64,000 nucleotides of DNA from Hyphomicrobiales bacterium (GTDB lineage Bacteria > Pseudomonadota > Alphaproteobacteria > Rhizobiales > OSC116), in the NCBI GenBank assembly GCA_013214705.1, contig JABSRZ010000003.1, positions 589,443 to 653,442 on the forward strand. Reading direction: 5' to 3'. Of the stretch, positions 8,072 through 22,884 are shown piece after piece. The notes beneath the pieces are model-generated. The model did no database searches. It was not told the DNA's origin and was given only the letters and a program-made list of their open reading frames with translations. Position 1 is the first letter of the stretch. Each line of letters begins with the position of its first letter. Position numbers and translations under genes: made by a program.

Positions 8072-8327
8072 TTCAGTTAGTCGTATAAGTTCAGTTTTTA
8101 GTCTCTGAATCTCCGAACCCTGAGCGGCGGTTTTTTTAATCTTAGTTCTGATTGGCTATAAACCCGCCCCCATCATAAGGTGATTTGGTGCAAATACCCA
8201 ACCGCTCAGAAACTTCCTGCACTGAATAACCTCGATCCGTGATTTGAACCACGGCATCACGCTTAAATTCCTCGGAGCAGCGACTGCATGACATACTTAG
8301 ACACTTTGCTTCAATTGTAACCCCCAA
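8072..8327 (-). pseudogene. IS3-family OrfA fragment, frameshifted
   Basis: Encodes the IS3 OrfA helix-turn-helix start (SEEFKRDAVVQITDRGYS, then VQEVSERLGICTKS). The frame breaks where relatives read KSLYTW. A second frame continues with the leucine-zipper-like SEIQRLKTELIRLTE and then runs into unrelated DNA. No OrfB follows. Non-functional remnant. Confidence 0.75.
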
Positions 8328-8338
8328 GCTGTCTACTA

Positions 8339-8651
8339 AATTAGGGGCGATTCAGTCATTGGATTTGAAGGTTAGAGAATTCGAATTAGAGCCAAATTAT
8401 TGAAACCCTCTGTGAAGTGACAATCCCGCGGAATAATTTGATTGTCACTAACAAATGACACATAATATAACACAATGACACCCACCACCACTCTCGCCCC
8501 TATTCAGGTGGTGAAAAAGTTCGCAAAAACCAATGTTATCGGAGTTAATCCCATTTAACATGGCGAATTTTGAGAGCATTCGTTGGTATATTTGCCATAT
8601 TTGATCAACAAAAATGATTATTAAAATTTAATCTAGATCAATAACCTCTTA
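8339..8651. other. Intergenic stretch without a recognisable gene
   Basis: No credible coding frame. It holds a 9-bp inverted repeat, GTGACAATC at 8417-8425 and GATTGTCAC at 8440-8448 with a 14-base loop, and a 7-bp repeat CACCACC/GGTGGTG around 8483-8518. Neither is followed by a clear T-tract. Probably decayed flank of the IS relic; I cannot assign a function. Confidence 0.5.
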
Positions 8652-8867
8652 CTATAAGCGGGGTTTTTTAGTGAAAGGTTTTAATGAACTACTCGCCACC
8701 CACACCAAAAAGATAAAGAAAAAATTACTCGCAATCAAATACACATGTTTATAGGTAAAATTTGAGAATAGGGCATTTTCTGAAATAAGCACATAGGCGA
8801 TGAACCCCAGCCACAGCACGCTCAATGTACATAATATTGCAAAAATAATTCCAGATTTATTTTCCAT
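8652..8867 (-). CDS. Small two-helix membrane protein, unknown function
   Basis: 71 residues with two hydrophobic segments, about 7-28 and 42-60, separated by a short polar loop, and a basic C-terminus (FTKKPRL). Topology suggests an inner-membrane hairpin. I do not recognise the family. It stands alone between the IS relic and the NTF2-like genes. ATG start, no strong ribosome site seen. Confidence 0.5.
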   Translation of the reverse strand: MENKSGIIFAILCTLSVLWLGFIAYVLISENALFSNFTYKHVYLIASNFFFIFLVWVASSSLKPFTKKPRL

Positions 8868-9071
8868 CTCAATAGCCCCCTTTTAAGCATCCACCACGGT
8901 GCTCTGAATATCCATAAATATTTAATCAAATTTGAATGAATATCCAGCTTAAGAGAAAATTAACCTTAACTGTTAAGGATGTCAGTAAAATTGGCGATAT
9001 TATGCGGACACGGGGCTAGGCCAATAACTATGCCATAAATTTGCATAACCGACTATTATGTGGTGATGTTA

Positions 9072-9533
9072 TTAAACGAACTTGACCGAACTATTTAGTT
9101 TTTCAATTTTCAAGATCGCCTGTTGGATAGACGAATTGTCGTTACCTATATTATCATAGATAACCGTAACCCGCTCGATCAGGCTTCTGACGACGAGGAA
9201 TGTCATCTCACCCCCACAATATAAAACGCGTTGTTCAACGCGCGGCACAATAACGCTTAGCCTTGCGGTGAAAAATATATCATCGTCTGAAATTGGTTGT
9301 TCAAAACAGATAGAAATATGTTTTTGCATAAAGTTTTTACGTTTAGCATAATTATCAAAATCTATTTCTGGGCCATTATCAACCGAAAACTTGAAAGTCG
9401 TAGACACTAAGTTTTCAAGCCGAGAGTCAACGCTCGTGTAAAAATTATCAATAAAAAATTTAACTAATTTGTGATTTTGATGCACCAAAATATCCGATTC
9501 TGAACCATATGTTTCCCAACATACAAATAGCAA
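9072..9533 (-). CDS. Probable NTF2-like (SnoaL-type) small protein
   Basis: About 153 residues if read from the TTG at 9533; the start is uncertain because no ATG fits and a GTG at the DILVHQNHK segment is an alternative. The pattern of N-terminal helices (HKLVKFFIDNFYTSVDSRLENLVS), a central variable segment and C-terminal beta strands resembles the NTF2/SnoaL fold. It may be a paralogue of the next gene and of the protein at 38924-39346. Function unknown; no catalytic signature is evident. Confidence 0.5.
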   Translation of the reverse strand: MLFVCWETYGSESDILVHQNHKLVKFFIDNFYTSVDSRLENLVSTTFKFSVDNGPEIDFDNYAKRKNFMQKHISICFEQPISDDDIFFTARLSVIVPRVEQRVLYCGGEMTFLVVRSLIERVTVIYDNIGNDNSSIQQAILKIEKLNSSVKFV

Positions 9534-9568
9534 GAATTGATTGAACTTTAGTTAATGAAACCTGAATA

Positions 9569-9973
9569 TTAAAGTTTAAAATCGGGGAATATTTCTCGAT
9601 TTCTGGTGATCAAATGCCCAATGTCTAGGTTAGAGCCAGCAGAGATTATTTCTAACTTGGTTATTAATTTTCCGTTGAAATCAACTTTGGTACAGCCGAC
9701 AAAATCACTGCGGTATTTACGGGCATTATCAACAGCGTGAATTTTATATCGAACTAAGTATGAAAGTTCATTCAATTCCTCGATTTCTGCGCCATTAAAT
9801 TCATATTCGGGCAGTAGCTTGTTGAAATATGCCATCCACTCAAATATAGGCATTTCGCGCCCTAAAACCGTTTTGACCATGGCATTGTCTGCAATCATAT
9901 GTTTCACATCGTCCACATTACCAGTGATGATGGCCGCAAAGACGCTCTCTACGCTTGTTCTATTCTCACTCAT
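9569..9973 (-). CDS. NTF2-like (SnoaL-type) small protein
   Basis: 134 residues with NTF2-like architecture: helical start (VESVFAAIITGNVDDVKHMIA), a central segment EWMAYFNKLLPEYEFNGAEIEE, and strands ending LITKLEIISAG. Such proteins are ketosteroid-isomerase-like cone folds used as small enzymes or binding modules. A purine-rich AGGAGG lies just before the ATG on the minus strand. It sits 35 bases upstream of another NTF2-like gene on the same strand, so the two are probably co-transcribed. Confidence 0.6.
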   Translation of the reverse strand: MSENRTSVESVFAAIITGNVDDVKHMIADNAMVKTVLGREMPIFEWMAYFNKLLPEYEFNGAEIEELNELSYLVRYKIHAVDNARKYRSDFVGCTKVDFNGKLITKLEIISAGSNLDIGHLITRNREIFPDFKL

Positions 9974-10129
9974 TTAAGTCCTCCTGCAAGCATCAATAAT
10001 AAACTCAAACTCTTGAAACGCTACCAAAAAAAACTACTCAAACAAAAAAAATGGGTTGAAAAAATCTATGTTGCAACGGGTAGGATATGAGCGTAGCTCA
10101 TCCCGCATTAAATACGGCATAAACTGGGT

Positions 10130-10705
10130 TTAGCTGCGTATGCCCGTTACGCTGTAAGTACAGATTTGAGCGCCATCATTGCTAAATATTCGGTCTTGGG
10201 CTGCGCCGAGTTGCAACACATCACCCGGTTGCAAAAGGTGAGTTTGGTCGAGTTCTATAAAGGTGAGACGGCCGCTAAATACCCAAATAATTTGGCAGTG
10301 ATGCATAAAACTCGCCGCTTTATAGGCAATGCTTTTGCCTGCGGGTAATTCTATTTTGGCAATGTCGAGCGGGAATTTGGCATCGGTTCTGGAAATTACC
10401 TGCGTGCGAATGTAACCCGTTTCAGGGTCGACCCATCGGGTTTGATCGACCTCGCGAATGAGGCCGACATTGTCGATATTTTCGGCACGGGCGAGCAGAG
10501 TGGAAAGATTTAACCCAAATGCACCCGACAATCTGCCAAGTAGAGCGGCAGTCGGGCTGCTTTGGCCGCGCTCAACTTTATTGATCATGGCGCGCGATAC
10601 GCCCGATTTTTCGGCCAAATTTGACAATGACCAACCCCGTAAAATGCGCTCTTGTTTTAGCCGTGCGCTCAAGCGTTGATCTAAATTATTTAACGGTTTG
10701 GTCAA
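10130..10705 (-). CDS. XRE-family regulator with C-terminal cupin
   Basis: 191 residues: N-terminal HTH (LKQERILRGWSLSNLAEKSG, then VSRAMINKVERGQSSPT at about 15-55) and a C-terminal cupin (FPLDIAKIELPAGKS, then VFSGRLTFIELDQ and LQPGDVLQLG at about 110-185). This MerR/XRE-cupin design usually senses a small metabolite and controls an adjacent catabolic gene. The ATG overlaps the stop of the upstream PLP-lyase gene by 4 bases, so regulator and enzyme are co-expressed. Confidence 0.88.
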   Translation of the reverse strand: MTKPLNNLDQRLSARLKQERILRGWSLSNLAEKSGVSRAMINKVERGQSSPTAALLGRLSGAFGLNLSTLLARAENIDNVGLIREVDQTRWVDPETGYIRTQVISRTDAKFPLDIAKIELPAGKSIAYKAASFMHHCQIIWVFSGRLTFIELDQTHLLQPGDVLQLGAAQDRIFSNDGAQICTYSVTGIRS

Positions 10706-11814
10706 GATAAATCATCCAACACGGCCTGCATATTTGACCATAGAATTTTGGTTGGTTCTATGCCCAAGGACAGGCGTACATAACCCTCAGCCACGTCATC
10801 GCCCCATCTAGCGCGGCGTTCGGCCGAAGTGTGGATGCCGCCAAAACTTGTAGCCGCAACGATGAACTCGCACTCATTGATAAACCGTTCGGCAATATGT
10901 GCATTGCGAAACTCGACCCCTATTAAAGAGCCAAAACATTGCATTTGAGTTTTGGCCAATTGATGTGCTGGGTGGCTGGTTAGGCCAGGATAAACAACCG
11001 ATGAAACCACAGGGTAATTGCTGAGCTGAGTGGCGACAAAGCTGGCATTTTGGCACATGCGCTCAAAGCGAATTTCGAGTGTTTCTAGGCCGCGATGTAC
11101 CAACCATGCGTCATGCGGGCTGACGATGGCGCCGGTGATTTTGCGCCATTCACGTATATTTTCGATAATGTCTGCATTGCGGCTGGCCACATGGCCAAAC
11201 AAAGTGTCGCTATGGCCGTTTAAGGCTTTGGTGTCAGACGCGACCACTATATCTGCACCCAGATCGAGCGGTTGCTGACCCAAAGGCGTCATGGTGGTAT
11301 TATCGACCACCAATAAGACGTTTGCTGCTTGGCATTTGGCGGCGATTTTTTGCAGATCGCAAAGGTCTAATTTGGGGTTTGACGGGGTCTCGAGCAAGAC
11401 CATACGATATTGCGAAAAATCTTGAGATTCAATATTCAAAGTTGAGCATTCTTGCACAATCACCCCCAATGGCTTGAGAAATTTTTCGGCCATGACGCGG
11501 GTGACATAATAACCATCGGACGGTATCAGCAACTTGTCATTGGGTTTGAGAATTGAGAGTAAAACCGCAGAAATAGCCGCCATGCCTGATGGAAACGTAA
11601 CAACCGGAGCGTTTTCTAACATAGAAATGATGTTTTCGGTCGCATCCCAGGTGGGGTTAGACACGCGGCCATATTGATAATCACCCTCGGGAATGTTGGG
11701 TAATTTATAGGTTGACGCGGGCACAATGGGCACCGATATCGGTTCGCCAGTGTCTATGTGATTTTGGCGGTGATGTAGAGCTTTGGTGAAGCTGGTTTTT
11801 GGATCGAATGTCAT
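10702..11814 (-). CDS. PLP-dependent cystathionine gamma-family lyase
   Basis: Trans-sulfuration (Cys/Met metabolism) PLP enzyme, 370 residues. The YGRVSNPTWDATE motif that binds the cofactor phosphate of the neighbouring subunit, FPSGMAAIS, VVDNTTMTPLGQQP and the Schiff-base Lys196 in ASDTKALNGHSD are all visible. The family covers cystathionine beta/gamma-lyase, methionine gamma-lyase and related C-S lyases; substrate cannot be decided from sequence. Coupled to an XRE-cupin regulator, which suggests an inducible rather than biosynthetic role. Confidence 0.87.
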   Translation of the reverse strand: MTFDPKTSFTKALHHRQNHIDTGEPISVPIVPASTYKLPNIPEGDYQYGRVSNPTWDATENIISMLENAPVVTFPSGMAAISAVLLSILKPNDKLLIPSDGYYVTRVMAEKFLKPLGVIVQECSTLNIESQDFSQYRMVLLETPSNPKLDLCDLQKIAAKCQAANVLLVVDNTTMTPLGQQPLDLGADIVVASDTKALNGHSDTLFGHVASRNADIIENIREWRKITGAIVSPHDAWLVHRGLETLEIRFERMCQNASFVATQLSNYPVVSSVVYPGLTSHPAHQLAKTQMQCFGSLIGVEFRNAHIAERFINECEFIVAATSFGGIHTSAERRARWGDDVAEGYVRLSLGIEPTKILWSNMQAVLDDLS

Positions 11815-11902
11815 AGTTTCCCTTATATAATGTTATATTGGTACACTATATGAGACAAATTACTATGCAATGGATTATTAAAAAATAAACAAATGAGTTG
11901 GT

Positions 11903-13282
11903 TTATCTATCTATTTCCAACCCACTGGGTACAGAATCTGGCACGCCAAGTGGCAGGTTATAGGCTTGATTGCCGGTTAAGCTGGCCATAAAATCTACCA
12001 GATTTGTCACTTGTTTTGCAGTCAATGCAACGGGCACAATGTCGATTTTATTTCTGACCCGCGCCATCTCTCTGCTGTCAGCCTGAACTAAAAAGTCAGC
12101 CTTTTTAAGCCAACTAATGGGCGGCAATTCGGCTAGGTTTTGTGTCCAATTGTCGAACATGAGTTGGGGGGTTAAATGATGTTTTATGATGCCTTCTAGG
12201 GTCGGATATGCGCCATTATGGCCGTAAGGTGCGGTTAAAACCACGTTGCGCAATGAAGGTGTGCGAAATCTATAAGCGTCTTCTAGGCGGTCACTCGCGC
12301 CCATTCTGCCGACGTCTCGAGCATAGGGGTCAAACCGTCTGGTGCGCCCTGGCCCAAAGGGAGGAATGGCCAAGGCATAAAAATTTTGGTCGCTCAATAA
12401 TGAGCCAGAATGGCATTTGGCGCAATTGGCTTGGCCATAAAATAAATCTAATCCCGCCATTTGGCTGGTGCTTAATGCTTGTTTATCCCCTGCCAAATAA
12501 GCGTCAAATGGCGAGTCGATGCTGAACCATTCGGTGCCGATAAACGCCGCCAAGGCTTCACCAATTTCGACAATCGAAACTTGTTCGGGCTTAGATATAT
12601 GGGCAAACGCATCGACAAATAATTCTCCATATTCTGGAATGATGCGAACCCGCTTGGCAAGGATTGGCCAGACTTTATCTATCCGATCAAATGCCGCGCC
12701 CGCAACTTGATTTTCTCTGGGGTTACCGGCCATTTCAAATTGCGATGTTAGTGGCAAAAGCGCTTGCGCGGCGACTAAATTTGACAGGCCTTTTGGTAAC
12801 CATTCTTCGGCTGGCGAGTTGAAGCCATTTTCATAAAAATCTGATTTTGAAAGCCGACCATCATGAAACAGCAACTTGATTTCTTTGGCGCCTAAATTCC
12901 ATAAAGCGGGTGCATTGCGCGGGATTCGTTTTTGTATACGGTCATCTTTTATACCTGCAGTGCGTTGTTTTCCAAGGCCAATTCCACCCTCACCTATGCC
13001 CAATGACAAGCCATCGCTGCCACCTAATTTTTGATGATGGCAACTACCGCATGAAATATTTTGGTTGCCGGAAAGGATTTTATCATAAAATAATAATTGA
13101 CCTAACTGGGCTTGCTTCTGATCAAAAACTATGAAATCATTTGAACTCATTAGCTTGGGAAGTGGATATTTTAACCCTTCTGCATGCGAAATTGAGACCG
13201 AGATAAGCATTAGAAAGAGAGAGCAAAAATGCAAAAATTTGTAATTTATTCCACCTGCGTAATGATGATATTTTCGAGCCAT
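11903..13282 (-). CDS. Periplasmic di-haem cytochrome c peroxidase family protein
   Basis: From the ATG at 13282 the protein has 459 residues: a signal peptide (hydrophobic FLHFCSLFLMLISVSI, cleavage after SHA34) and two c-type haem sites, CGSCH at 78-82 and CAKCH at 287-291, in the MauG/bacterial cytochrome c peroxidase arrangement. It reduces peroxide with electrons from small c-type cytochromes or acts as a MauG-like oxidase. The frame is open for about 130 further codons upstream, but that part lies under the opposite-strand Sel1 gene and is rejected. The chosen start still overlaps that gene by 54 bases; a later start at 13210 would leave a very short signal. Confidence 0.88.
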   Translation of the reverse strand: MARKYHHYAGGINYKFLHFCSLFLMLISVSISHAEGLKYPLPKLMSSNDFIVFDQKQAQLGQLLFYDKILSGNQNISCGSCHHQKLGGSDGLSLGIGEGGIGLGKQRTAGIKDDRIQKRIPRNAPALWNLGAKEIKLLFHDGRLSKSDFYENGFNSPAEEWLPKGLSNLVAAQALLPLTSQFEMAGNPRENQVAGAAFDRIDKVWPILAKRVRIIPEYGELFVDAFAHISKPEQVSIVEIGEALAAFIGTEWFSIDSPFDAYLAGDKQALSTSQMAGLDLFYGQANCAKCHSGSLLSDQNFYALAIPPFGPGRTRRFDPYARDVGRMGASDRLEDAYRFRTPSLRNVVLTAPYGHNGAYPTLEGIIKHHLTPQLMFDNWTQNLAELPPISWLKKADFLVQADSREMARVRNKIDIVPVALTAKQVTNLVDFMASLTGNQAYNLPLGVPDSVPSGLEIDR

Positions 13283-13714
13283 ATTGTGCACGCCGAAATT
13301 GAAACCGGACGCGATTTTATGGATGCCGGAAATTTTGAACAAGCGATGAAAGAGTTTATACCAGCCGCCAGAACCGGCAACGCAGATGCAGAAGAATTGA
13401 TTGGCGTTTTGTACGCCATGGGTTTGGGTGTTGAGCGCGATGATGTGCGGGCGTTCGAGTGGTATATGCGGGCTTCTTTGAAGGGGCATGCTGGCGCGCA
13501 AAGTGGCATTGGTTGGTATTACGAAGTTGGCCGAGGTATCAATGCGCCCGATCTGGTTAGAGCCTACACATGGTATGTTTTGTCGGCGATCGGCGGTGAC
13601 CCTGACGCGGCGATTAGCCAAGAAGAGGTGGTTAAAAAAATGACGGTTGAACAAATTAATAAAGCGCATGTTTTAATCGATGATTATAAGGTATGGTTAT
13701 ACCCGTTTCGTTAA
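13229..13714 (+). CDS. Exported Sel1-repeat (TPR-like) protein
   Basis: 161 residues. Signal peptide of about 20 residues ending VHA before EIETG, then Sel1-like repeats: GNADAEELIGVLYAMGLGVE and GHAGAQSGIGWYYEVGRGI are clear repeat cores. Such proteins mediate periplasmic protein interactions. A purine-rich AGAAAGAGAGAG precedes the ATG at 13229. Divergent from the di-haem peroxidase with overlapping 5' ends. Confidence 0.85.
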   Translation: MQKFVIYSTCVMMIFSSHIVHAEIETGRDFMDAGNFEQAMKEFIPAARTGNADAEELIGVLYAMGLGVERDDVRAFEWYMRASLKGHAGAQSGIGWYYEVGRGINAPDLVRAYTWYVLSAIGGDPDAAISQEEVVKKMTVEQINKAHVLIDDYKVWLYPFR

Positions 13715-13726
13715 ATTTTTGGCATA

Positions 13727-13752
13727 TGAGAGCCATATAATTATGGCTCTCA
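13727..13752. terminator. Hairpin between convergent genes
   Basis: A perfect 11-bp inverted repeat (TGAGAGCCATA and TATGGCTCTCA) around a 4-base loop, between the stops of the Sel1 gene and dctP, which converge here. It suits a bidirectional terminator, although neither side has a strong T-tract. Confidence 0.55.
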
Positions 13753-13765
13753 AATCTTGTAAAGT

Positions 13766-14833
13766 TTAGTTCAGATCTTTGGCATTGGCTGCGCCAATTG
13801 AAGCCTCAGCATCTGACACAGCAGATGTTAATGCGTCAAAAATGTCCTGACCGCCTTTAACATTGCTAGTGAACCATTCATAAACCGGGGCTGCAGCGGC
13901 TTTAAATTCGGCTTTTTCAGCAGGTGTTGGTACATATAAATCACCACCACCAGCTACAAATTCTTCATAAGCGGCGATAGATTTACGTTTTGGTGAAGCA
14001 AATGTTGCTTGTTGCAATGCAGAGAAACCATCCACAATCACTTGGCGTAATTCTTCAGACATGCCTTTAAACTTGTCATTATTCATCCACCATAACGCAC
14101 CCATATAGGCATGGCCATCTAGGGTTACATATTTTAAGCCAGCGTCTGGGAATTTCATGCCCATTATGTCGGTAATGCCGTTTTTAGAACCTTCGACCAC
14201 ACCAGTTTGGAATGATGTGAACAATTCAGGCCACGGGATAGGTGTTGGTGAAGCGCCCATGGCTTTTACCAATTCTTGCGGCAGATCTGCCACCACTGTG
14301 CGAATTTTTAGGCCTTTCATATCGGCTGGTGATTGCACACGACGTTTTGTGTTGGCAAAGTTGCGCCATCCACCAGTGTTACCAATGGTCATTAAGCGAA
14401 TTTTGTCACCAGAATCAGCTAGTGCCATGCCGCGCATTGTACGGGTGAAATCACCAGACAATACATGTTCGGCAACACGGTCGCTGGCCATCAGATATGG
14501 CAAATCTAGAACTTGCACATAAGGGAATGCGCCAGCTGCACCGCCGGATGTAGATATATAAATATCAATCGTACCATCGGCTATGCCTTGTAGGCATTCT
14601 GCGCCTTTTGAACATAGTTGAGTGCCAATGAATAACTCCACACCAATTTTGCCGTTTGAAGCTGATTCAACATAGTTTTTAAACACCACGAGGCCATCAT
14701 AATCTTCATCATTTTCATTTGAGTTGGCGGTGGCACGGATGTTAATTTCGGCAGCGTAACTTGCCGCAACGCCGCTTAATATAAGCCCTGCTCCTAACGC
14801 AGCGGTGCCCATAGTTTTAAGCAATTTATTCAT
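13766..14833 (-). CDS. TRAP transporter substrate-binding protein (DctP family)
   Basis: 355 residues from the ATG at 14833, chosen because AAGGAGGAAG lies just upstream and a typical signal peptide follows (MNKLLKTMGTAALG, then AGLILSGVAASYAAE). The DctP family pattern is present: LFIGTQLCSKGAECLQGIADG, RTMRGMALADSG, NFANTKRRVQSPADMKGLKIR with the conserved substrate-carboxylate arginine, and FQTGVVEGSKNG. Periplasmic receptor for the DctQM permease encoded upstream. The island context suggests an anionic sulfonate ligand. Confidence 0.93.
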   Translation of the reverse strand: MNKLLKTMGTAALGAGLILSGVAASYAAEINIRATANSNENDEDYDGLVVFKNYVESASNGKIGVELFIGTQLCSKGAECLQGIADGTIDIYISTSGGAAGAFPYVQVLDLPYLMASDRVAEHVLSGDFTRTMRGMALADSGDKIRLMTIGNTGGWRNFANTKRRVQSPADMKGLKIRTVVADLPQELVKAMGASPTPIPWPELFTSFQTGVVEGSKNGITDIMGMKFPDAGLKYVTLDGHAYMGALWWMNNDKFKGMSEELRQVIVDGFSALQQATFASPKRKSIAAYEEFVAGGGDLYVPTPAEKAEFKAAAAPVYEWFTSNVKGGQDIFDALTSAVSDAEASIGAANAKDLN

Positions 14834-14850
14834 TTCTTCCTCCTTTTTAA

Positions 14851-14896
14851 GAACCGTTTTGGTTCCTTTAATTGGCTTCAATATTTTGATTGAAGC
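14851..14896 (-). promoter_or_regulatory. Tandem intercistronic hairpins between dctM and dctP
   Basis: Two adjacent stem-loops: an 8-bp stem GCTTCAAT/ATTGAAGC at 14875-14896 directly after the dctM stop, and GAACC/GGTTC at 14851-14865 just before the dctP ribosome site. Without a U-tract they look like mRNA-processing or stabilising elements that would raise receptor expression over permease expression (inference). Confidence 0.5.
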
Positions 14897-14897
14897 A

Positions 14898-16424
14898 TTA
14901 GAACATCGCCCCTAGGATTGGCCCCAGGAGATCTGCATCTTTTACAAATCCTAACCATGTGGGTATTCCCAGTGATATCACTGGAAAATAAGTGATGAGA
15001 AAAATCACAAACACCTCGACGGCTAGAAACGGTAAAATGGCTCGGGAAATGGCCTCGACCTTAACCCCCGACACTGCCGAGGCGACAAATAACACCAGCC
15101 CCATCGGCGGTGTTGCCAACCCAACGGTTAAATTGACTGACATTATCATGGCGAAATGCACGGGGTGTACGCCCATATTTATAAATATGGGTGCCAAAAT
15201 AGGCCCTAATATAATGATGGCTGGCCCGGCATCTAAAAACATGCCAACAACGAATAAAAGTATATTAATCAGAAATAATAACATTATTGGGTCATTGGTC
15301 AGAGCCACAATCATGTTGGCCAAATCTTCGGCGGCGTGGGATAAGCTAACCACGGTTTTGAAGGCCATAGCCGCACCAACCAGTAGTAAGACCACACCAG
15401 AGATGATCGCCGCACGGCTCAAAACGCCCGACAAATCAGATATTTTTAAAGTTTTTAATACCACTAGCCCAAGAAATGCCGCATAAGCCACCGCTAGCGC
15501 CGAAGCTTCGGTTGGAGTGGCAACGCCGCCCAAAATACCACCCAAAATTATCACCGGTGTAAGCAGTGGCAAAATCGCGCGTTTGGAAACAATTCTGAAA
15601 CCTTCAGACATTAAACGACGTTGAAGCATTAAAAACAATTCGGCAGATATAAAACCTAATACCCAAACTATGGCGACAAACGTCCACCCATCGGTTTCAC
15701 CTAAGCCCGTAATTTTTGCGAATAGTGGGTATACTGCTCCTGCCAATAATATACGGGTAATTATTCTAGCAGAAATATCTTCAAACGGCGAAATTGTTAC
15801 ATGGGTAAAAACCACCTTTTTGGCGGGTGGAAAATCATAATGATTGGCCATGGCGCGGGTGACGATCATCAACCCTAAGCCGACCAATATGCCCGGAATA
15901 ACGCCACCAGCAAACAATGCGGCAACAGAAACCTCCATCACATAGGCGTAAATAATCATGATGCCAGAGGGCGGGATTATCGGCCCGATGACAGAAGATG
16001 CGGCGGTAATTGCGGCCGAAAATTTACGGGTATAACCTTCCTTTTCCATCGCCGGGATGAGCATGCTGCCCAGCGCCGAAGTGTCGGCAACGGCCGAGCC
16101 GGACATGCCAGCAAATAACATGGATGAGAGAATATTCACCTGTGCCAAACCACCCCGAAACGAGCCAATAATGGCCTGTGAAAACGTCACCAAACGTTCC
16201 GTTATGCCGCCTCTATTCATTAACTCGCCAGCCAACATAAAAAATGGAATTGCCAACAATACGCCATTGTCCATACCGTTAAAAATATTTCGGTACATCA
16301 GTGCCAAATCGCGCTCTTGGCCGTTAATGTATAAAATAAACCCGGGGGCAACCAACATGGCAAAAAACACTGGCACGCCGATGAGCAGCAATATTAAAAA
16401 TAGGGGTAAAAACAGTGCTAACAT
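14898..16424 (-). CDS. TRAP transporter large permease (DctM family)
   Basis: 508 residues from the ATG at 16424, preceded by GGAGGG. A polytopic membrane protein of about 12-13 helices with DctM family signatures: LAGELMNRGGITERLV, SGSAVADTSALGSMLIPAM and IGPIIPPSGIMIIYAY. Couples substrate import to the sodium gradient with DctQ and the DctP receptor. Starts one base after the dctQ stop, so translation is coupled. An in-frame extension to 16460 would overlap dctQ and is not needed. Confidence 0.93.
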   Translation of the reverse strand: MLALFLPLFLILLLIGVPVFFAMLVAPGFILYINGQERDLALMYRNIFNGMDNGVLLAIPFFMLAGELMNRGGITERLVTFSQAIIGSFRGGLAQVNILSSMLFAGMSGSAVADTSALGSMLIPAMEKEGYTRKFSAAITAASSVIGPIIPPSGIMIIYAYVMEVSVAALFAGGVIPGILVGLGLMIVTRAMANHYDFPPAKKVVFTHVTISPFEDISARIITRILLAGAVYPLFAKITGLGETDGWTFVAIVWVLGFISAELFLMLQRRLMSEGFRIVSKRAILPLLTPVIILGGILGGVATPTEASALAVAYAAFLGLVVLKTLKISDLSGVLSRAAIISGVVLLLVGAAMAFKTVVSLSHAAEDLANMIVALTNDPIMLLFLINILLFVVGMFLDAGPAIIILGPILAPIFINMGVHPVHFAMIMSVNLTVGLATPPMGLVLFVASAVSGVKVEAISRAILPFLAVEVFVIFLITYFPVISLGIPTWLGFVKDADLLGPILGAMF

Positions 16425-16425
16425 A

Positions 16426-17028
16426 TTAGCTGCCCTCCGAATTAGGTGAATCTGTTCCATCTTCTATGGTCAAATTTGGCCAAAATAATTTTTGGAATTT
16501 CTTCAAAAATAATTCAAACGAAACCGCAAGCATGAGCACCAGTAAAATGGTCATGGCAAAATAAATATAGGAGGTGGTGAATTTTAAATTGGTGCCGAAT
16601 AATTGGTTGATGCCGGTAGATTGTAGCAACATATTCAAACCCGAGGAATCAAATAAAAGCGGGGCTGAAAAATGTGCCCACGCGTGGGACAGCATAACAA
16701 TAATCACCAATGTACTAAGTGCCAAAATTAAGAAATTCAGCACGCTGCTGGCGCGCTTTGGCAACATGTCTGCGAGCATTTCAATGGCCACAAACCCTTG
16801 GTTTCTGTAGGCTGTCGGCGCGATGAGTGCCATCATCCAGATCATCAGCGCGCGCGCCGCTTCTTCGGGCCAAGGCAAGGCATTATTTAATACATAACGG
16901 AAAAATATTTGTAGTAAAATGGCCACTACCATGAGCGCCATAGCCAATATAGCAAGCCTACGCGCGGCATTTAATGCCACATCGTTAATCCGGCATACTA
17001 GCTGAACAAATAGTGAATATATTGCCAA
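16426..17028 (-). CDS. TRAP transporter small permease (DctQ family)
   Basis: 200 residues with four transmembrane segments and the DctQ motif LPWPEEAARALMIWMMALIA. I place the start at the TTG at 17028 because AAGGAGGG at 17033-17040 is correctly spaced for it; that ribosome site would be inside the gene if the upstream TTG at 17046 were used. Middle gene of the permease operon, between the flavin reductase gene and dctM. Confidence 0.88.
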   Translation of the reverse strand: MAIYSLFVQLVCRINDVALNAARRLAILAMALMVVAILLQIFFRYVLNNALPWPEEAARALMIWMMALIAPTAYRNQGFVAIEMLADMLPKRASSVLNFLILALSTLVIIVMLSHAWAHFSAPLLFDSSGLNMLLQSTGINQLFGTNLKFTTSYIYFAMTILLVLMLAVSFELFLKKFQKLFWPNLTIEDGTDSPNSEGS

Positions 17029-17087
17029 TTTTCCCTCCTTAACCAATAGTCAACAATGGTTGAATTCCCTAGTGGTTTTATTAAAAA

Positions 17088-17645
17088 CTATGCCTCTTGA
17101 TTGCCTGTAAAAGTGCCAAATTTACCAGCAGAAAATAATAATGGTTGCCCTTGACGCTGCGAAAATCTTAACACCCGGCCGACCAAGATACTATGGTCGC
17201 CAGCATCATGTGAAACTTCATTGGCGCATTCGAACCTAGCCAATGCCATTTTTGCCAAGGGTATATTGTCTTGACTTAGGTCCCAATCGGGCGCTTCAAA
17301 CATGTTGGCATTTTTGGCAAATGTCATGGCCAATTCCATCTGATTTTCGGCCAAAATATGGATTGCAAAATGGGTAGCATCTCGAAAAGCTGCATAACGG
17401 CCAGATTTTTTGGCGACCGACCATAATACCAATGCTGGGTCTAGAGACACTGATGCAAATGAATTCACCGTAATGCCAATTGGGCCTTGGTCTGTTTGGG
17501 TGGTGATGAGCGTAACCCCGGTGCCAAATTTGCCAAGCGCGTCCCTATAATCGCGCACAGCATCGCCATTGGCAGTGATATTTTGGGTGCGCATCGCGTG
17601 GGCATTTTGCAGTGTATTTTCATCAATATGGGTCTGTGTTTGCAT
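17088..17645 (-). CDS. NAD(P)H:flavin reductase of the sulfonate island (SmoA/SsuE-role)
   Basis: Flavin reductase-like FMN-binding domain protein (185 residues from the ATG at 17645). Family motifs: LGKFGTGVTLITTQ, GPIGITVNSFASVSLDPALV and HSILVGRVLRFSQR. Supplies reduced FMN to a partner monooxygenase. It lies in one operon with an SsuD-like monooxygenase two genes upstream, the classical two-component pairing, and occupies the position of SmoA in the sulfoquinovose monooxygenase pathway. Confidence 0.87.
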   Translation of the reverse strand: MQTQTHIDENTLQNAHAMRTQNITANGDAVRDYRDALGKFGTGVTLITTQTDQGPIGITVNSFASVSLDPALVLWSVAKKSGRYAAFRDATHFAIHILAENQMELAMTFAKNANMFEAPDWDLSQDNIPLAKMALARFECANEVSHDAGDHSILVGRVLRFSQRQGQPLLFSAGKFGTFTGNQEA

Positions 17646-17698
17646 ATTATGTCTCACTAATTATAAATAATATTCGGCGCGTAACCTCGTTTGATAGG

Positions 17699-18601
17699 TT
17701 AAGCCACTTCGAAACCTTGCGCAGCCGTGTAGATTTCAAACCAAGTTTGGCGGTCGATTTTCAGTTTAAATGCATCTGACAACTTTTGAATCCGGCTTAA
17801 ATTATTTGTGCCCATTATTGGTAAAATACCGGCAGGATGCGCCATTAACCAAGCCACCGCAACCGCATCGATGCCGACCGAATGCTGTTGAGCTATTTTT
17901 GTCAATATATTTTGCACCGCGGCGAGCATTTTGGTTTCTGGGTCGAATAATGCACCACCACCCAGTGGCGACCAAGCCATGGGATGAATTTTATGTTGTT
18001 GTAAAAACGCAATGTCGCCATTAACAAAGGCGTTTCTGGCCAACACGCTCAACTCAATTTGATTGGTGACCAAATTTTCGGCCATGCTAGATTGCAATAA
18101 ATTCCAATCGTGGGGTTTAAAATTAGAAACACCGACATTCAACACTTTACCGGATTTCATCAAATCGTCTAATGCGCGGCCGGTGTCAATATGATCCATA
18201 AGCGGGTCTGGGCGGTGAATGAGCAGCAAATCAATATGGTCTGTATGCATGTCTGTCAGCGAAAGTTCGACAGAATTTTTTATATGTTGAGCCGAGCTGT
18301 CATAATATTTCACCCGCGCGTCACTATAGCGGCCAGCCGGGGCGATGATGCCACATTTGGTGATGATTTCGACCCGGTCGCGCAAATGCGGCGCGGCGGC
18401 GAAGCAAGTGCCCAAAACCGCCTCGGCTTCATAACCGCCATAAATATCGGCTTGGTCTAAGCTGGTAATGCCTTGCTCCAAACAAGCCTCAATTTTGGCC
18501 TGAACATGCTTTGGCGAGGTGTCTTTATCATCACCAATTCGCCACATGCCGTAAATAATTTGGCTCAATTCAAGCCGATCTGAAAGTTTTATACGTTGCA
18601 T
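17699..18601 (-). CDS. Aldo/keto reductase (SmoB-like candidate)
   Basis: Aldo/keto reductase (300 residues) with the catalytic tetrad Asp49, Tyr54, Lys82 and His129 (DQADIYGG, ITKCG, LLIHRPDP), and the NAD(P)-binding end WSPLGGG and PIMGTNNLSRIQKL. Its start shares one base with the monooxygenase stop (TAATG). In the sulfo-SMO pathway an AKR (SmoB) reduces the aldehyde 6-oxo-glucose formed when sulfoquinovose is desulfonated; reduction of an aldehyde released by the adjacent monooxygenase is the simplest reading here. Substrate unproven. Confidence 0.88.
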   Translation of the reverse strand: MQRIKLSDRLELSQIIYGMWRIGDDKDTSPKHVQAKIEACLEQGITSLDQADIYGGYEAEAVLGTCFAAAPHLRDRVEIITKCGIIAPAGRYSDARVKYYDSSAQHIKNSVELSLTDMHTDHIDLLLIHRPDPLMDHIDTGRALDDLMKSGKVLNVGVSNFKPHDWNLLQSSMAENLVTNQIELSVLARNAFVNGDIAFLQQHKIHPMAWSPLGGGALFDPETKMLAAVQNILTKIAQQHSVGIDAVAVAWLMAHPAGILPIMGTNNLSRIQKLSDAFKLKIDRQTWFEIYTAAQGFEVA

Positions 18602-19758
18602 TATTTGCGCACTCCATTGCCCAGTGGCGTGGCGGGCGTGCTGGCTGGCCGCCGGCCATGTAATTCTGGTAATGAGCAGGTTTCTAACTGAGGTAATACC
18701 CGTTTGCCGAATGATTCACACTCATCTAAATGTGGGTAGCCCGAAAATATGAACGCCCGGATGCCCATTTTTTTATATTCTTCAATTTCCGATAATACTT
18801 GGTCGGTCGAGCCAACCAATGCCGCGCCGCAGCCAGAACGCGCCCGGCCAACGCCGGTCCATAAATGTGGTTCGATATAACCTTCTAAATCGGCCAATTC
18901 TCGGTTTTTTGCTTGATGAGACACACCTAGTGATGATGAATCTAAAGCCCGTTCGCGTATGATGCGGCCTTGTTCATCGTCTAATTTTGATACCAATTCT
19001 CGGGCATATTCTTTGGCTTCGGCTTCTGTGTCGCGCACAATCACGTGCATACGCAGGCCATAATCTAACAATCTATTATATTTTTCGGCCTGTTTATGCA
19101 CGGCTTTCATGCGCTCGGCTAATTCTTGCTTTTTTTCCGGCCACATTAAATAAACATCACAATGTTCGCCGCATAAATCTAGCGCGGCAGGTGAATAGCC
19201 ACCAAAATACATAAGTGGCCCGCCATTTTGCTGATATGGTTTTACCGGGTCGGTGGTTAAACCACTGAAATTATAAATCTCGCCTTGAAAATTAATTTCG
19301 TCTTGAGTCCAAGCTTGTTTTAAAATTTCGACCACTTCACGCGAGCGTTGATAACGATATATACTCTCTTCTTTTTGCCCGGGAAAATCTGAAGAAATGA
19401 TGTTGATGGTCAGGCGACCCTTCATCATATGATCTAATGTGGCAATTGTGCGCGCCAACATAATGGGTTGCACTTCGCCGCAGCGCACCGCAGCCAACAT
19501 ATTAATATTTTCGGTCAAAGGTGCATTGCCGGCAACAAAGGTCAGCGTGTCCTGCCCGACTTGGTACGATGAGGGGCAAAGAATGTTGCGAAAGCCCAAT
19601 TTATCGGCGGTTTGAACTATTTTGCTTGTGCTTTCCCAAGATGAACGCAAATCGCCTTCTGGCACACCCAAATGGCGATAATCATCTGAACATAAGGGCG
19701 CAAACCATGCAACTTCAACTGCATTTGTGTCCGCTGATTTCACTGGAACTATAGACAT
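18601..19758 (-). CDS. FMNH2-dependent sulfonate monooxygenase, SsuD/SmoC-like
   Basis: LLM-class flavin monooxygenase (385 residues) aligning along its length with alkanesulfonate monooxygenase SsuD. Active-site residues appear at a constant offset of ten from E. coli SsuD: Trp206, Arg236 and His238 (LRMH), Arg307 (GRARSGCGAALVG), Tyr341 and His343 (SGYPHLDE). I see no clear equivalent of SsuD Cys54, and the His11 region reads PLCSDD. The family cleaves the C-S bond of sulfonates to aldehyde plus sulfite. First gene of the six-gene minus-strand operon; GGTGAGG precedes the ATG. The exact sulfonate is inferred. Confidence 0.88.
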   Translation of the reverse strand: MSIVPVKSADTNAVEVAWFAPLCSDDYRHLGVPEGDLRSSWESTSKIVQTADKLGFRNILCPSSYQVGQDTLTFVAGNAPLTENINMLAAVRCGEVQPIMLARTIATLDHMMKGRLTINIISSDFPGQKEESIYRYQRSREVVEILKQAWTQDEINFQGEIYNFSGLTTDPVKPYQQNGGPLMYFGGYSPAALDLCGEHCDVYLMWPEKKQELAERMKAVHKQAEKYNRLLDYGLRMHVIVRDTEAEAKEYARELVSKLDDEQGRIIRERALDSSSLGVSHQAKNRELADLEGYIEPHLWTGVGRARSGCGAALVGSTDQVLSEIEEYKKMGIRAFIFSGYPHLDECESFGKRVLPQLETCSLPELHGRRPASTPATPLGNGVRK

Positions 19759-19801
19759 ATAACCTCACCCCATTTAACATTGGTAAAAATAAATCATCTG
19801 A

Positions 19802-19852
19802 TTTGACGCAAATCAAATAGCTAAAAAACCGCCAAATTTGATGCAAATCAAT
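19802..19852. promoter_or_regulatory. Two dyad operators between divergent sulfonate-island operons
   Basis: Two near-identical palindromes, TTTGACGCAAATCAAA at 19802-19817 and TTTGATGCAAATCAA at 19837-19851, each a TTGAY-GCAA-ATCAA dyad, with starts 35 bases apart. They lie between the monooxygenase and the GntR gene, where a GntR dimer would control both directions. Further TGTATCAAT direct repeats occur at 19870-19890. Confidence 0.65.
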
Positions 19853-19913
19853 AAATCACTTGTGCATCACTGTATCAATGGTGTATCAATTTATCAACCC
19901 CAATCGGAAAAAT

Positions 19914-20654
19914 ATGCCAGAAACTTTCAAAACATCATCAAATCGGTTATCGCGCCATGTGGAAATAAGTGAAATGCTGGCGCGCGAGATTCAGGCCGGA
20001 ATATTATTGGATGGCAGCCGCCTTGCACCAGAACGTCAAATGGCCGAAAAACTGGGCGTAGCGGTCGGTACACTGCGCAAAGCCTTGTTAGATTTGACCG
20101 AAAAAGGCTTGCTCGAACGGGTGCATGGTTCGGGCAATTATGTGCGCAGCCGTGGCACCACCAAAGAAGCTCAAGCCAATACAATTTATAGTTTTTTTAG
20201 GTTGGAACTAATTGCTGGTGGTGGCTTACCAACCGCCGAAGTGGTGTCTGTGGATAAGTTAGTAAAACCAGATGATATTGGCGACATCGGTCCGGATGAT
20301 TTTGGCCATCGGATAAGACGGCTAAGGCGATTGAACGGCATTGACGCCGCGCTCGAAGAAATTTGGATAGACGGCAACAAGCGTGAAATAATTCGCAAAG
20401 AGGAATTATCGGACTCTTTATATCTTTTTTACAAAGAAGAGCTTGGTCATTGGATTACCAACGCCCACGACAATGTGAGCATTTTGCAGACACCGGAGTG
20501 GAAGCCCGATGATTTTGGCAGCAAAAACAGCGACAACTCGCAGGTTTGGGGCTATATTGAACGGTTTAGTTTCGATCAAAATAACCAATGTGTGGAATTT
20601 TCTAAAACTTGGTTTGACCCTCAGACCACGCGATTTGTCGCCCGCTGGAAATAA
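19914..20654 (+). CDS. GntR-family regulator of the sulfonate island
   Basis: 246 residues from the ATG at 19914 (an upstream TTG frame is less likely). N-terminal GntR winged HTH: LAREIQAGILLDGSRLAPER, then QMAEKLGVAVGTLRKALLDL and GLLERVHGSGNYV, at about 15-85. The C-terminal part is a UTRA-type ligand-binding domain (RRLRRLNGIDAALEEIWID). Lies divergent from the monooxygenase operon, next to two dyad operators. Probably a repressor released by the imported sulfonate or a breakdown product. Confidence 0.88.
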   Translation: MPETFKTSSNRLSRHVEISEMLAREIQAGILLDGSRLAPERQMAEKLGVAVGTLRKALLDLTEKGLLERVHGSGNYVRSRGTTKEAQANTIYSFFRLELIAGGGLPTAEVVSVDKLVKPDDIGDIGPDDFGHRIRRLRRLNGIDAALEEIWIDGNKREIIRKEELSDSLYLFYKEELGHWITNAHDNVSILQTPEWKPDDFGSKNSDNSQVWGYIERFSFDQNNQCVEFSKTWFDPQTTRFVARWK

Positions 20655-20702
20655 CATTGGATGTAACATTAAAAATAACAAACTAACGAAAAGGCTAGTT
20701 TT

Positions 20703-21794
20703 TTGAAAAAATTACAATATGGATTCATTGGCTGCGGCATGATGGGCCGTGAACATATCCAAAATATTAAATTGCTTAAAAATACCGCCATCGTTGGCAT
20801 TGTTGAACCTGATGAACATATGCGCGCTGAAGCTATGAAGCTTTTGCCAGGCGTACAGTTTTACTCAACTATTGCGGAATTGCTGGCCATAAAAACGCTA
20901 GATTGTTTGGTCATTGTTAGCCCTAACCATATGCATGTGGAACAATTGCAAGAGATTGCCACCACCCGCCCATTGCCAATTTTGGTGGAGAAACCACTGG
21001 CCACCAGCCCAGAGCAAATTGAGCTTATCGAAAATTTAATAGAAACTTATCCTGAGCCAATATGGGTGGCGATGGAATACCGATATATGCCGGTGGTGGC
21101 CAAATTAATCGAGCAAGCCGAAGAGGTGACAGGCGGCATCGACATGCTTTCAATTCGCGAACATCGGTTTCCATTTTTAGAAAAAGTCAATGACTGGAAC
21201 CGGTTTAACCAGAATTCTGGCGGCACATTTGTCGAAAAATGCTGTCACTTTTTTGATTTAATGCGACTGATTATAAAATCAGAACCGGTGAGCATTATGG
21301 CATCCTGCGGCCAAGCTCATAACCATTTAGATGAAGTTTATGACGGCCGAGTGCCGGATATATTAGACCATGGCTATGTGATTGTGAATTTTGAATCTGG
21401 CGCACGGGCGATGCTCGAGTTATGCATGTTTGCCGAAGGCTCACGCTATCAAGAAGAAATTTCGATTGTCGGGGCGAAGGGCAAAATTGAATGTTTCGTG
21501 CCTGGCCCTGGGCGGTTTTGGCCAGAACATTTGGGCGCAGCGCCGGTGGCGCAAGTTATTTTATCACCTCGCAAACCGCAAGGGCCGCAAGTGTTGGAAA
21601 TAGCAGTGGACCCACAATTGCTCGATGCGGGCGATCATAACGGCTCGACATTCTACCAACATCAGAAGTTTCAGCAGGTGGTATTGGGCAACCAAGCGCC
21701 AGAAGTTAGCCTTAATGATGGCCTAATGGCCGTGCGCATGGGGTTGGCGGCTCAAAAATCTTCGGCAACTGGCGAAACTGTCAAAATCAATTGA
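20703..21794 (+). CDS. Gfo/Idh/MocA-family oxidoreductase of the sulfonate island
   Basis: NAD(P)-dependent sugar-type dehydrogenase (363 residues). Rossmann motif GFIGCGMMG at residues 7-15 and the family EKP motif (LVEKPLATSP) are present, with an acidic/His-rich substrate region SGGTFVEKCCHFFDL. The start is a TTG at 20703 because no ATG precedes the Rossmann motif; AAAAGG lies upstream. It follows the GntR gene after 48 bases. Likely acts on a sugar-like or polyol intermediate after desulfonation, consistent with a sulfosugar substrate. Confidence 0.88.
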   Translation: MKKLQYGFIGCGMMGREHIQNIKLLKNTAIVGIVEPDEHMRAEAMKLLPGVQFYSTIAELLAIKTLDCLVIVSPNHMHVEQLQEIATTRPLPILVEKPLATSPEQIELIENLIETYPEPIWVAMEYRYMPVVAKLIEQAEEVTGGIDMLSIREHRFPFLEKVNDWNRFNQNSGGTFVEKCCHFFDLMRLIIKSEPVSIMASCGQAHNHLDEVYDGRVPDILDHGYVIVNFESGARAMLELCMFAEGSRYQEEISIVGAKGKIECFVPGPGRFWPEHLGAAPVAQVILSPRKPQGPQVLEIAVDPQLLDAGDHNGSTFYQHQKFQQVVLGNQAPEVSLNDGLMAVRMGLAAQKSSATGETVKIN

Positions 21795-21861
21795 TTAACC
21801 TATTTTACTTTATTAACTTATTTCACTTAATATCGCTCATTAATTTTATAGAAAAATACTT

Positions 21862-22884
21862 ATGTCATTTGCACAACAAAAAATTGCCGAAACCAAAGAA
21901 AATGTCAAGAAACTATTTCCGGGCTTGCTGGTGGCGGTTTTGGTGGCAATCACCGCGCAATTTATTGCCGACCATTATGGCGCGCCGGCCATGCTAATGG
22001 CTTTGTTATTGGGCATTGCTTTGCATTTTTTATCTGAAGAAGGCCCAACCGTAGAAGGTGTGCAATTTGCCGGATCTTCACTTTTGCGCATCGGCGTTTG
22101 TTTATTGGGCGCACGAATTAATGTCGAATTAATCTCGATGTTGGGTTTTAACTTTGTCATGTTGATCATTGCCGGGGTTGTCATCACCATATTATTCGGC
22201 TGGTTGATCGGCTTATTATTTGGCGCTGATTGGCGATTTGCAGTTTTAACCGCGGGGTCAGTTGCCATTTGCGGGGCATCAGCGGCCATCGCAATCTCTG
22301 CGGTTTTGCCCAAAACCAAGGGCTCAGAACGCAATTTAATTTTTACAATTTTAAGCGTAACAGTGTTGAGCACCATTGCCATGATCGGTTATCCAATACT
22401 AACAAGATTTATTGGATTGGATGAAATTACAACCGGTGTATTTATTGGTGGCACCATACATGATGTGGCACAGGTGGTTGGCGCAGGCTTTTCAATTTCT
22501 GAAGAAACCGGCGAATTTGCCACCGTTAGCAAGTTGATCAGGGTGTCGATGTTGGCGCCTATAGTGCTGATTCTATCGATAATTGTACGGTTAAAAACTG
22601 GTTCAGACCAAAGCCACGGCAAAAAGGCCCCTCTGATTCCGTTATTTGTATTGGGGTTTTTGGCATTGGCGGCCATCAATTCTATGGGCTTGTTAAGCCA
22701 TGAGGTTGTCGAATTCATCAACTCGATTTCTCGCTGGGCTTTGTTGGTGGCTATTGCAGCAATTGGCATGAAAACATCACTCAAACGTGTGATGGACGTT
22801 GGCAGTTCGGCGATTATTCTCATCGTTACCGAGACAGTTTTTCTAGCCATATTCATTCTAATCGGGATTGGATATTTAAGTTAA
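21862..22884 (+). CDS. YeiH-family putative sulfate/sulfite exporter
   Basis: 340-residue polytopic membrane protein of the YeiH/UPF0324 family (putative sulfate exporter). Characteristic segments: SLLRIGVCLLGARI, GSVAICGASAAIAISAVLP, GVFIGGTIHDVAQVVGAGFS and ALLVAIAAIGMKTSLKR. About ten hydrophobic segments. In a cluster that would release sulfite inside the cell, an exporter for sulfite or sulfate is expected, which supports the desulfonation reading. AT-rich 67-base gap after the dehydrogenase gene; ATG start. Confidence 0.9.
   Translation: MSFAQQKIAETKENVKKLFPGLLVAVLVAITAQFIADHYGAPAMLMALLLGIALHFLSEEGPTVEGVQFAGSSLLRIGVCLLGARINVELISMLGFNFVMLIIAGVVITILFGWLIGLLFGADWRFAVLTAGSVAICGASAAIAISAVLPKTKGSERNLIFTILSVTVLSTIAMIGYPILTRFIGLDEITTGVFIGGTIHDVAQVVGAGFSISEETGEFATVSKLIRVSMLAPIVLILSIIVRLKTGSDQSHGKKAPLIPLFVLGFLALAAINSMGLLSHEVVEFINSISRWALLVAIAAIGMKTSLKRVMDVGSSAIILIVTETVFLAIFILIGIGYLS

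Follow-up and report, generated by a model that had tools for sequence, protein, structure and literature searches.

A predicted sulfo-SMO island for sulfoquinovosyl glycosides with a TRAP importer whose genes also accompany sulfo-EMP2-like operons

Sulfoquinovose (SQ) is a sulfur-containing sugar found in photosynthetic membranes. A sulfoquinovose monooxygenase pathway (sulfo-SMO, also called sulfo-ASMO), with an operon for a monooxygenase, an aldo-keto reductase (AKR) and a flavin reductase, is known from Agrobacterium, Novosphingobium and the Roseobacter clade. PMC9594981 describes the Agrobacterium system with an ATP-binding cassette (ABC) transporter for SQ-glycerol, and PMC10755693 reports GH188 enzymes as near-universal in Roseobacter sulfo-SMO clusters, so that this part of such clusters is already known. 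We analyzed a stretch of 64,000 nucleotides, here called the window, from a Hyphomicrobiales bacterium (GCA_013214705.1, contig JABSRZ010000003.1, positions 589,443 to 653,442 of the forward strand); coordinates below are window positions. The host genome is alphaproteobacterial and 3.5 Mb in size, with an alpha_tmRNA score above the cut-off. The window carries the same three-gene operon, for which direct C-S cleavage would be expected, and a GH188 gene as in Roseobacter. It differs from the Agrobacterium system in having a tripartite ATP-independent periplasmic (TRAP) importer, a YeiH-family gene, and a pair of genes for a di-haem protein and a Sel1-repeat protein. A sequence-only reading of the window had proposed a self-contained organosulfonate island. 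Its nine open reading frames (ORFs) are at the positions it gave and their Pfam and NCBIfam assignments fit the names it used. Its core, sulfo-SMO with TRAP import, holds, whereas its claim that a sulfoquinovosidase (SQase) is missing, and the substrate deduced from this, are wrong. We are confident that the locus is a self-contained sulfo-SMO island predicted to serve sulfoquinovosyl glycosides.

The gene at 18601..19758 on the minus strand is predicted to encode a SmoC-type FMN-dependent sulfoquinovose monooxygenase of 385 amino acids. The protein is 72.4% identical over 384 residues to 7oh2, which has the PDB name 'alkanesulfonate monooxygenase' and which we take to be SmoC. Its matches to 7oh2 (E 2e-197) and 7olf (8e-194) are far stronger than that to the E. 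coli-type SsuD 1m41 (2e-55), and it keeps W206, R236, H238 and H343, presumed active-site residues of such monooxygenases. A quick tree of 69 rows contained the window protein, 7oh2, 53 of the 84 proteins from SMO loci and 14 more distant relatives, and was rooted on 13 of these 14, several of which form long branches; L091, which has an in-frame stop, and 31 of the 84 SMO-locus proteins were left out. The window protein and 7oh2 fell in one 55-row clade (SH-aLRT 98) with all 14 distant relatives outside it. Phylogeny had been suggested as a check by the sequence-only reading, and this luciferase-like monooxygenase (LLM) is placed inside the SMO clade. A genome of the same order (L083) has an LLM monooxygenase 47% identical to SmoC that lies outside this clade.

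The adjoining gene at 17699..18601 on the minus strand is predicted to encode a SmoB-type AKR that would reduce 6-dehydroglucose to glucose. This protein is 64.6% identical to 7bby (PDB name 'aryl-alcohol dehydrogenase'; presumably SmoB), with YdhF-type proteins far behind as matches, and it contains D, Y, K and H, which we take to be the AKR tetrad. The flavin reductase gene (17088..17657, minus strand) encodes a PF01613 domain protein with 4xhy as its best PDB match; FerA models are the nearest, with a score below the cut-off. It is predicted to fill the role of SmoA, supplying FMNH2 to SmoC. The proposed sulfo-SMO-type chemistry was borne out by the close matches of the monooxygenase and the AKR, and on the same two identities a new sulfonate pathway, the other option that had been raised, was rejected. 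The enzymes encoded here are thus predicted to be those of a sulfo-SMO SQ cluster of a known kind.

The Gfo/Idh/MocA protein encoded at 20703..21794 on the plus strand had been read as a dehydrogenase acting on the desulfonated sugar. Its three best PDB matches are 8zn9, 8qc2 and 8qc3. The latter two are GH188 NAD+-dependent SQases (SqgA) described by Kaur et al. 2023 (PMC10755693). The window protein is 62.6% identical to 8zn9 (PDB name 'oxidoreductase, putative') and 49.4% identical to ArSqgA (8qc3) over 358 aligned residues. PMC10755693 names nine ArSqgA residues. Positions could be assigned to eight of them, and the window protein keeps every one: window K97, Y126, R155, L159, K161, E178, H182 and H312 correspond to ArSqgA K107, Y136, R166, L170, K172, E189, H193 and H321. 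The ninth, Glu163, is a Val in ArSqgA itself by the offset used, and the next position holds a conserved Glu. The R, L and K at the sulfonate site are kept, and the Leu at the L170 position is the usual residue; Tyr variants there are described in PMC11465081. The protein thus shares the placeable residues of the SqgA enzymes of Arthrobacter and Flavobacterium, and it is predicted to be a GH188 SQase of the SqgA type. The residues and PDB matches led us to reject a dehydrogenase role, and glucose is the expected product of the pathway. With an SQase in the cluster, the idea that a free sulfonate is the substrate falls, and SQ glycosides are the likely substrates.

All three TRAP genes are present on the minus strand next to the genes of the SmoC operon, as the sequence-only reading had it. 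They encode the small membrane subunit DctQ (16426..17046; PF04290), the large permease DctM (14898..16460; PF06808, TIGR00786) and the solute-binding protein DctP (13766..14881; PF03480; likely start ATG 14833). The window cluster has TRAP in place of the ABC importer of the Agrobacterium system. Spacing is operon-like on both strands, ranging from a 35-base overlap to 41-base gaps between the minus-strand genes and with gaps of 48 and 67 bases between the plus-strand genes.

We compared this layout with SMO loci found by scanning genome contigs with the window SmoC. The best 80 of 189 confirmed stretches were taken, which tilts the sample towards relatives of the window protein. By tblastn with the window proteins, the 80 loci contain the AKR in 76, the GntR regulator in 77 and the flavin reductase in 68. 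At stricter thresholds (TRAP, 30% identity and 9 kb; ABC, 40%; GH188, 50%; GH31, 40%) TRAP was detected in 43 loci, ABC in 11 with no overlap between the two, GH188 in 66 and GH31 in 4. Absences are soft, since short contigs are frequent and the ABC queries were drawn from the same loci. A looser count of importers (at least two genes at any identity) gave 44 loci with TRAP, 17 with ABC alone, 6 with both and 19 with neither; the 44 include L080, which has an unrelated DctP of 23% identity. The ABC importer, which had been regarded as normal for sulfo-SMO, is a non-essential feature of these loci, and TRAP is not unusual among them. All six minus-strand genes were detected in 42 of the 43 TRAP-bearing loci, and in all 42 they lie on one strand in the order SmoC-AKR-flavin reductase-DctQ-DctM-DctP, so the conserved linkage that had been proposed as a check is present. 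The 43 loci belong to Rhodobacterales (32), Hyphomicrobiales (5), Gammaproteobacteria (5) and an unplaced alphaproteobacterium (1).

The conserved unit reaches past 13766 to about 11903, taking in two further genes. One encodes a Sel1-repeat protein (13229..13714, plus strand; PF08238) that by eye has a signal peptide and is apparently secreted. The other encodes a di-haem protein of the cytochrome c peroxidase (CCP)/MauG family (11903..13234, minus strand; PF03150, two CxxCH motifs; start TTG 13234 or ATG 13282), also apparently secreted as judged by eye. The two genes (window 11903-13714) are divergent and overlap at their 5' ends. Diversity at the three codon positions of the Sel1 gene (0.204/0.129/0.543 in 39 sequences) identifies the Sel1 frame as the coding frame, and the N-terminal extension of the 588-residue di-haem ORF (to 13669, antisense to Sel1) is therefore probably spurious. 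Among the SMO loci with at least 8 kb downstream, the di-haem gene is present in 22 of 36 with TRAP and in 0 of 26 without. More distant paralogues, mostly 40-46% identical, are encoded elsewhere in many of these genomes, including those without this TRAP.

A further sample comprised 248 genomes, taken evenly from a larger group, of the family that includes G085 (the Phaeobacter italicus genome from which L044 comes). Of these, 105 have SmoC (E <=1e-140) and 68 have the di-haem orthologue, with 69 matches (E <=1e-125). Both occur together in 47 genomes (Fisher p 2.8e-7; the genomes are related and are not independent samples), and in 36 of these 47 the di-haem gene lies on the same strand no more than 15 kb downstream of SmoC. 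Linkage to SMO, EMP2-like or TRAP genes was seen for 55 of the 69 matches, and one match was not fetched. Twenty-two matches are in 21 genomes without SmoC, and 21 of their neighborhoods were fetched. Fourteen of these contain the same TRAP family together with genes resembling those of the sulfo-EMP2 pathway: a PfkB kinase in all 14, a LacD/DeoC aldolase in 13, an SQ isomerase-like protein in 12, GH188 in 12, an aldose epimerase in 9 and an aldehyde dehydrogenase in 8. The queries for these genes were taken from the same 14 loci; a representative of the SQ isomerase-like protein scored 252 of 700 bits against NF048012. Three of the other neighborhoods have TRAP without either pathway and four have neither TRAP nor pathway. 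In a quick tree of 53 DctP family members, with one long branch and 11 of the 14 EMP2-linked DctPs (L119, L120 and L122 were left out), a single EMP2 clade was rejected (AU p 0.0036). At least three changes of pathway label are forced by starred branches and eight are required by parsimony. Thus TRAP, di-haem and Sel1 genes are shared with sulfo-EMP2-like operons, and they may form a portable uptake cassette.

The best argument for SQ or an SQ glycoside as the cargo is that one uptake unit occurs with two SQ pathways, and the genomic context supports DctP as the receptor. R157, R178 and N218 of DctP (numbered from ATG 14833) are invariant in 36 sequences, the window included, and align with the R, R and N of the isethionate receptor 8t9t, suggesting that an anion site is likely. 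DctP thus belongs to the same family as 8t9t (IseP) and as 24gc, a TRAP receptor for 2,3-dihydroxypropane-1-sulfonate (DHPS). It differs from 8t9t in its overall sequence (22% identity by structure alignment) and from both in its predicted cargo, a C6 sulfosugar or its glycoside.

The regulator is a GntR/UTRA protein encoded at 19860..20654 on the plus strand (PF00392, PF07702). A motif read off the regions upstream of SmoC, TTGATACA-NN-ATTGATA, is present in the 160 bp before that gene in 62 of 79 loci, and of the 68 matches with up to two mismatches in about 1.41 Mb of loci, 67 are in that position. The window has a perfect match at 19873..19889 on the minus strand in the divergent promoter, which is also the only match in the host genome at up to one mismatch. 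Since this site lies inside the regulator ORF as called, translation probably starts at ATG 19914. The motif is most simply a GntR operator, which the regulator would bind. One of the three neighborhoods with TRAP and neither pathway (L111, from G240) has the order GH188-GntR-TRAP-Sel1-di-haem with an operator-like site, and has no SmoC, AKR or flavin reductase between GntR and DctQ.

Based on these assignments, TRAP DctPQM would import SQ glycosides such as SQ-glycerol, SQ, or both, as the gene context suggests. The GH188 enzyme would release SQ from the glycoside, using NAD+ as a catalytic cofactor, given its identity to ArSqgA and kept residues. The flavin reductase would provide reduced flavin, with which SmoC and O2 would split the C-S bond to give sulfite and 6-dehydroglucose, as expected from the resemblance to 7oh2. 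The SmoB-like AKR would convert 6-dehydroglucose to glucose, which would feed into the glycolysis of the cell itself; the host genome encodes a glucokinase at another locus. Sulfite would leave the cell, perhaps through the YeiH-family protein, and the GntR protein may control the divergent promoter through the site described above.

The sulfite exit is the least secure of these steps. The membrane protein encoded at 21862..22884 on the plus strand is a candidate sulfite/sulfate exporter of the YeiH/PF03601 family (2.3e-66), and sulfite export by it is plausible though weakly supported. The opposing view, that it is the product of an unrelated neighbor gene, is a serious possibility that we consider somewhat less probable. 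It draws on the protein's score of 142.5 bits against TIGR00698, below the cut-off of 232.6, and on the scarcity of PF03601 homologues in the SMO loci; it does not account well for homologues of 51-55% identity located directly after DctP in L028, L072 and L077. Among 28 hydrophobic ORFs listed in a survey for exporters, 8 were annotated, placing PF03601 in L028, L077 and L079 and TauE in at least two other loci (L023 and L064; the survey was not exhaustive). No match to a PF03404-type molybdenum sulfite dehydrogenase was found in the host genome; SoeABC was not searched for. The stretches of L028, L072 and L077 contain neither the di-haem nor the Sel1 gene, and the window has both.

Could the whole cluster instead degrade a sulfonate other than SQ, such as sulfofucose or an alkanesulfonate, its SmoC-like enzymes having shifted in specificity? 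Substrates differ among LLM monooxygenases, and the PDB has TRAP receptors named for C2 and C3 sulfonates (isethionate and DHPS). We regard this as very improbable given the identities of 72% to 7oh2 and 65% to 7bby, the sulfonate-site R, L and K in a GH188 SQase of the same block, and a TRAP family common to sulfo-EMP2-like operons. The following points weigh against an SQ-glycoside island or parts of it. The identification of 7oh2 and 7bby with SmoC and SmoB is our own assumption. The AlphaFold2 model of DctP, built with 36 similar sequences, is poor (mean pLDDT 70.2); a structure search with it confirmed a TRAP receptor and nothing further, and specificity rests on context. Only 4 of 80 SMO loci have a PF03601 homologue, the fourth (L079) at 28% identity. 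One GH31-family protein is encoded elsewhere in the host genome. A single match to the operator-like motif in the window at up to two mismatches is within what chance would give (0.43 expected; 39 of 100 shuffles), and a reversed control pattern gave two matches in the host genome, so the weight of this site lies in its conservation across loci. Taken with these points, an SQ-glycoside island remains the reading that we prefer.

The role of the di-haem and Sel1 proteins is a separate question. The di-haem protein belongs to the Di-haem CCP/MauG superfamily by its PF03150 match and two CxxCH motifs. Its model is modest (mean pLDDT 73.3), and the fold matches MacA, CCPs, YhjA, 6e1c (PDB name 'MauG-like protein associated with copper homeostasis'; we take this to be MbnH) and MauG, with peroxidases first. 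The protein was below all three NCBIfam cut-offs listed: for MauG TIGR03791, the MbnH family TIGR04039 and TIGR03981 it scored 101.1, 133.9 and 241.8 bits against cut-offs of 443.85, 362.85 and 340. In 3 of 3 printed alignments it has a His at the position that we take to hold the axial Met of CCP, and at least 90% of 19 sequences share this His. Since MauG presumably has Tyr294 at this position, MauG-type chemistry is not favored. The protein thus shares its domain, CxxCH motifs and fold with the CCP, MauG and MbnH families (PF03150, TIGR03981, TIGR03791, TIGR04039), and it differs from them in its scores, this His and its Sel1 partner. The Sel1 protein ends in W-L-Y-P-F-R, and W-[LMI]-Y-P-F-R ends all 28 sequences that were aligned of 40, one with an extra residue. 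It is encoded in 30 of 35 fetched neighborhoods. The five that lack it (L098, L099, L100, L110 and L114) carry di-haem relatives of 50-54% identity, which in L098-L100 directly follow the SMO flavin reductase. In L110, from a genome without a SmoC match, the 50% relative is beside a flavin reductase and a PfkB kinase (8142-11556). In L098 the di-haem gene is followed at 11226-15308 by genes for an ABC ATPase, an FtsX/MacB permease and a CrtC-family lipocalin (Pfam, L098 only), and the same ORF clusters occur in L115. This set resembles lipid-handling Att-like systems, and it is possibly linked to sulfolipid.

MbnH acts on MbnP, which offers a model for oxidation of the Sel1 tail. The di-haem enzyme might oxidize the C-terminal W-x-Y-P-F-R of Sel1, and the modified protein would then be required to capture the sulfosugar, to mature the receptor or for redox gating of uptake; we consider this speculative and improbable, less likely than an ordinary peroxidase or a passenger role. 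As passengers, the pair would be ancestral neighbors of TRAP with no part in SQ uptake. This would agree with the 13 of 69 di-haem matches in the 248 genomes for which the sequence examined shows neither an SQ nor a TRAP gene (in two cases the contig is shorter than 7 kb), and with the 14 of 36 TRAP-bearing SMO loci that lack the gene in their downstream 8 kb or more. It fits less well with the presence of the pair in both pathways, its absence from the 26 non-TRAP loci, the relatives after flavin reductase in L098-L100, and its association with TRAP in both Hyphomicrobiales and Gammaproteobacteria (L002-L005, L008, L009, L011 and L013; these are metagenome-assembled genomes in which binning errors are possible). 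We therefore find it possible but on balance doubtful. No more probable, in our view, is a periplasmic peroxidase that clears H2O2 and so benefits cells using a flavin monooxygenase. The best structure matches are to the bacterial di-haem peroxidase family (MacA, YhjA, CCP), and the position of the relative after flavin reductase in L098-L100 would suit such a role. Against it, the gene also occurs in sulfo-EMP2-like operons with no SmoC or flavin reductase homologue in the stretches fetched, and the position of the CCP axial Met is the His described above.

The host genome has one SmoC match, and none of five same-genus genomes has any (E <=1e-20; two of the five are only 71-75% complete), suggesting that the island is accessory. 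Just beyond it, at 10130-11814, are a cystathionine gamma-lyase-like gene (NF005758 above the cut-off) and an HTH regulator, a possible link to sulfur.

As a pathway the system is known, and the portable uptake unit with its di-haem and Sel1 companions is the part worth following. A search of the sulfoquinovose literature, in the portions available, gave no description of this TRAP or of the di-haem/Sel1 pair; published gene maps may already show TRAP genes in Roseobacter SQ clusters. Among the 80 nearest SMO loci, a sample leaning to relatives of this SmoC, TRAP importers outnumber ABC importers (43 versus 11). The di-haem/Sel1 pair, which accompanies this TRAP in both pathways, is a concrete and testable subject; should the Sel1 tail in fact be oxidized, the pair would amount to a new system of protein modification linked to sulfosugar uptake and common to two catabolic pathways. 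That a pathway cleaving C-S bonds and one cleaving C-C bonds have exchanged one uptake unit suggests separate evolution of import and catabolism, each as a block. If the TRAP unit imports SQ or SQ glycosides, it would be a pathway-independent marker of sulfosugar uptake in marine genomes and metagenomes.

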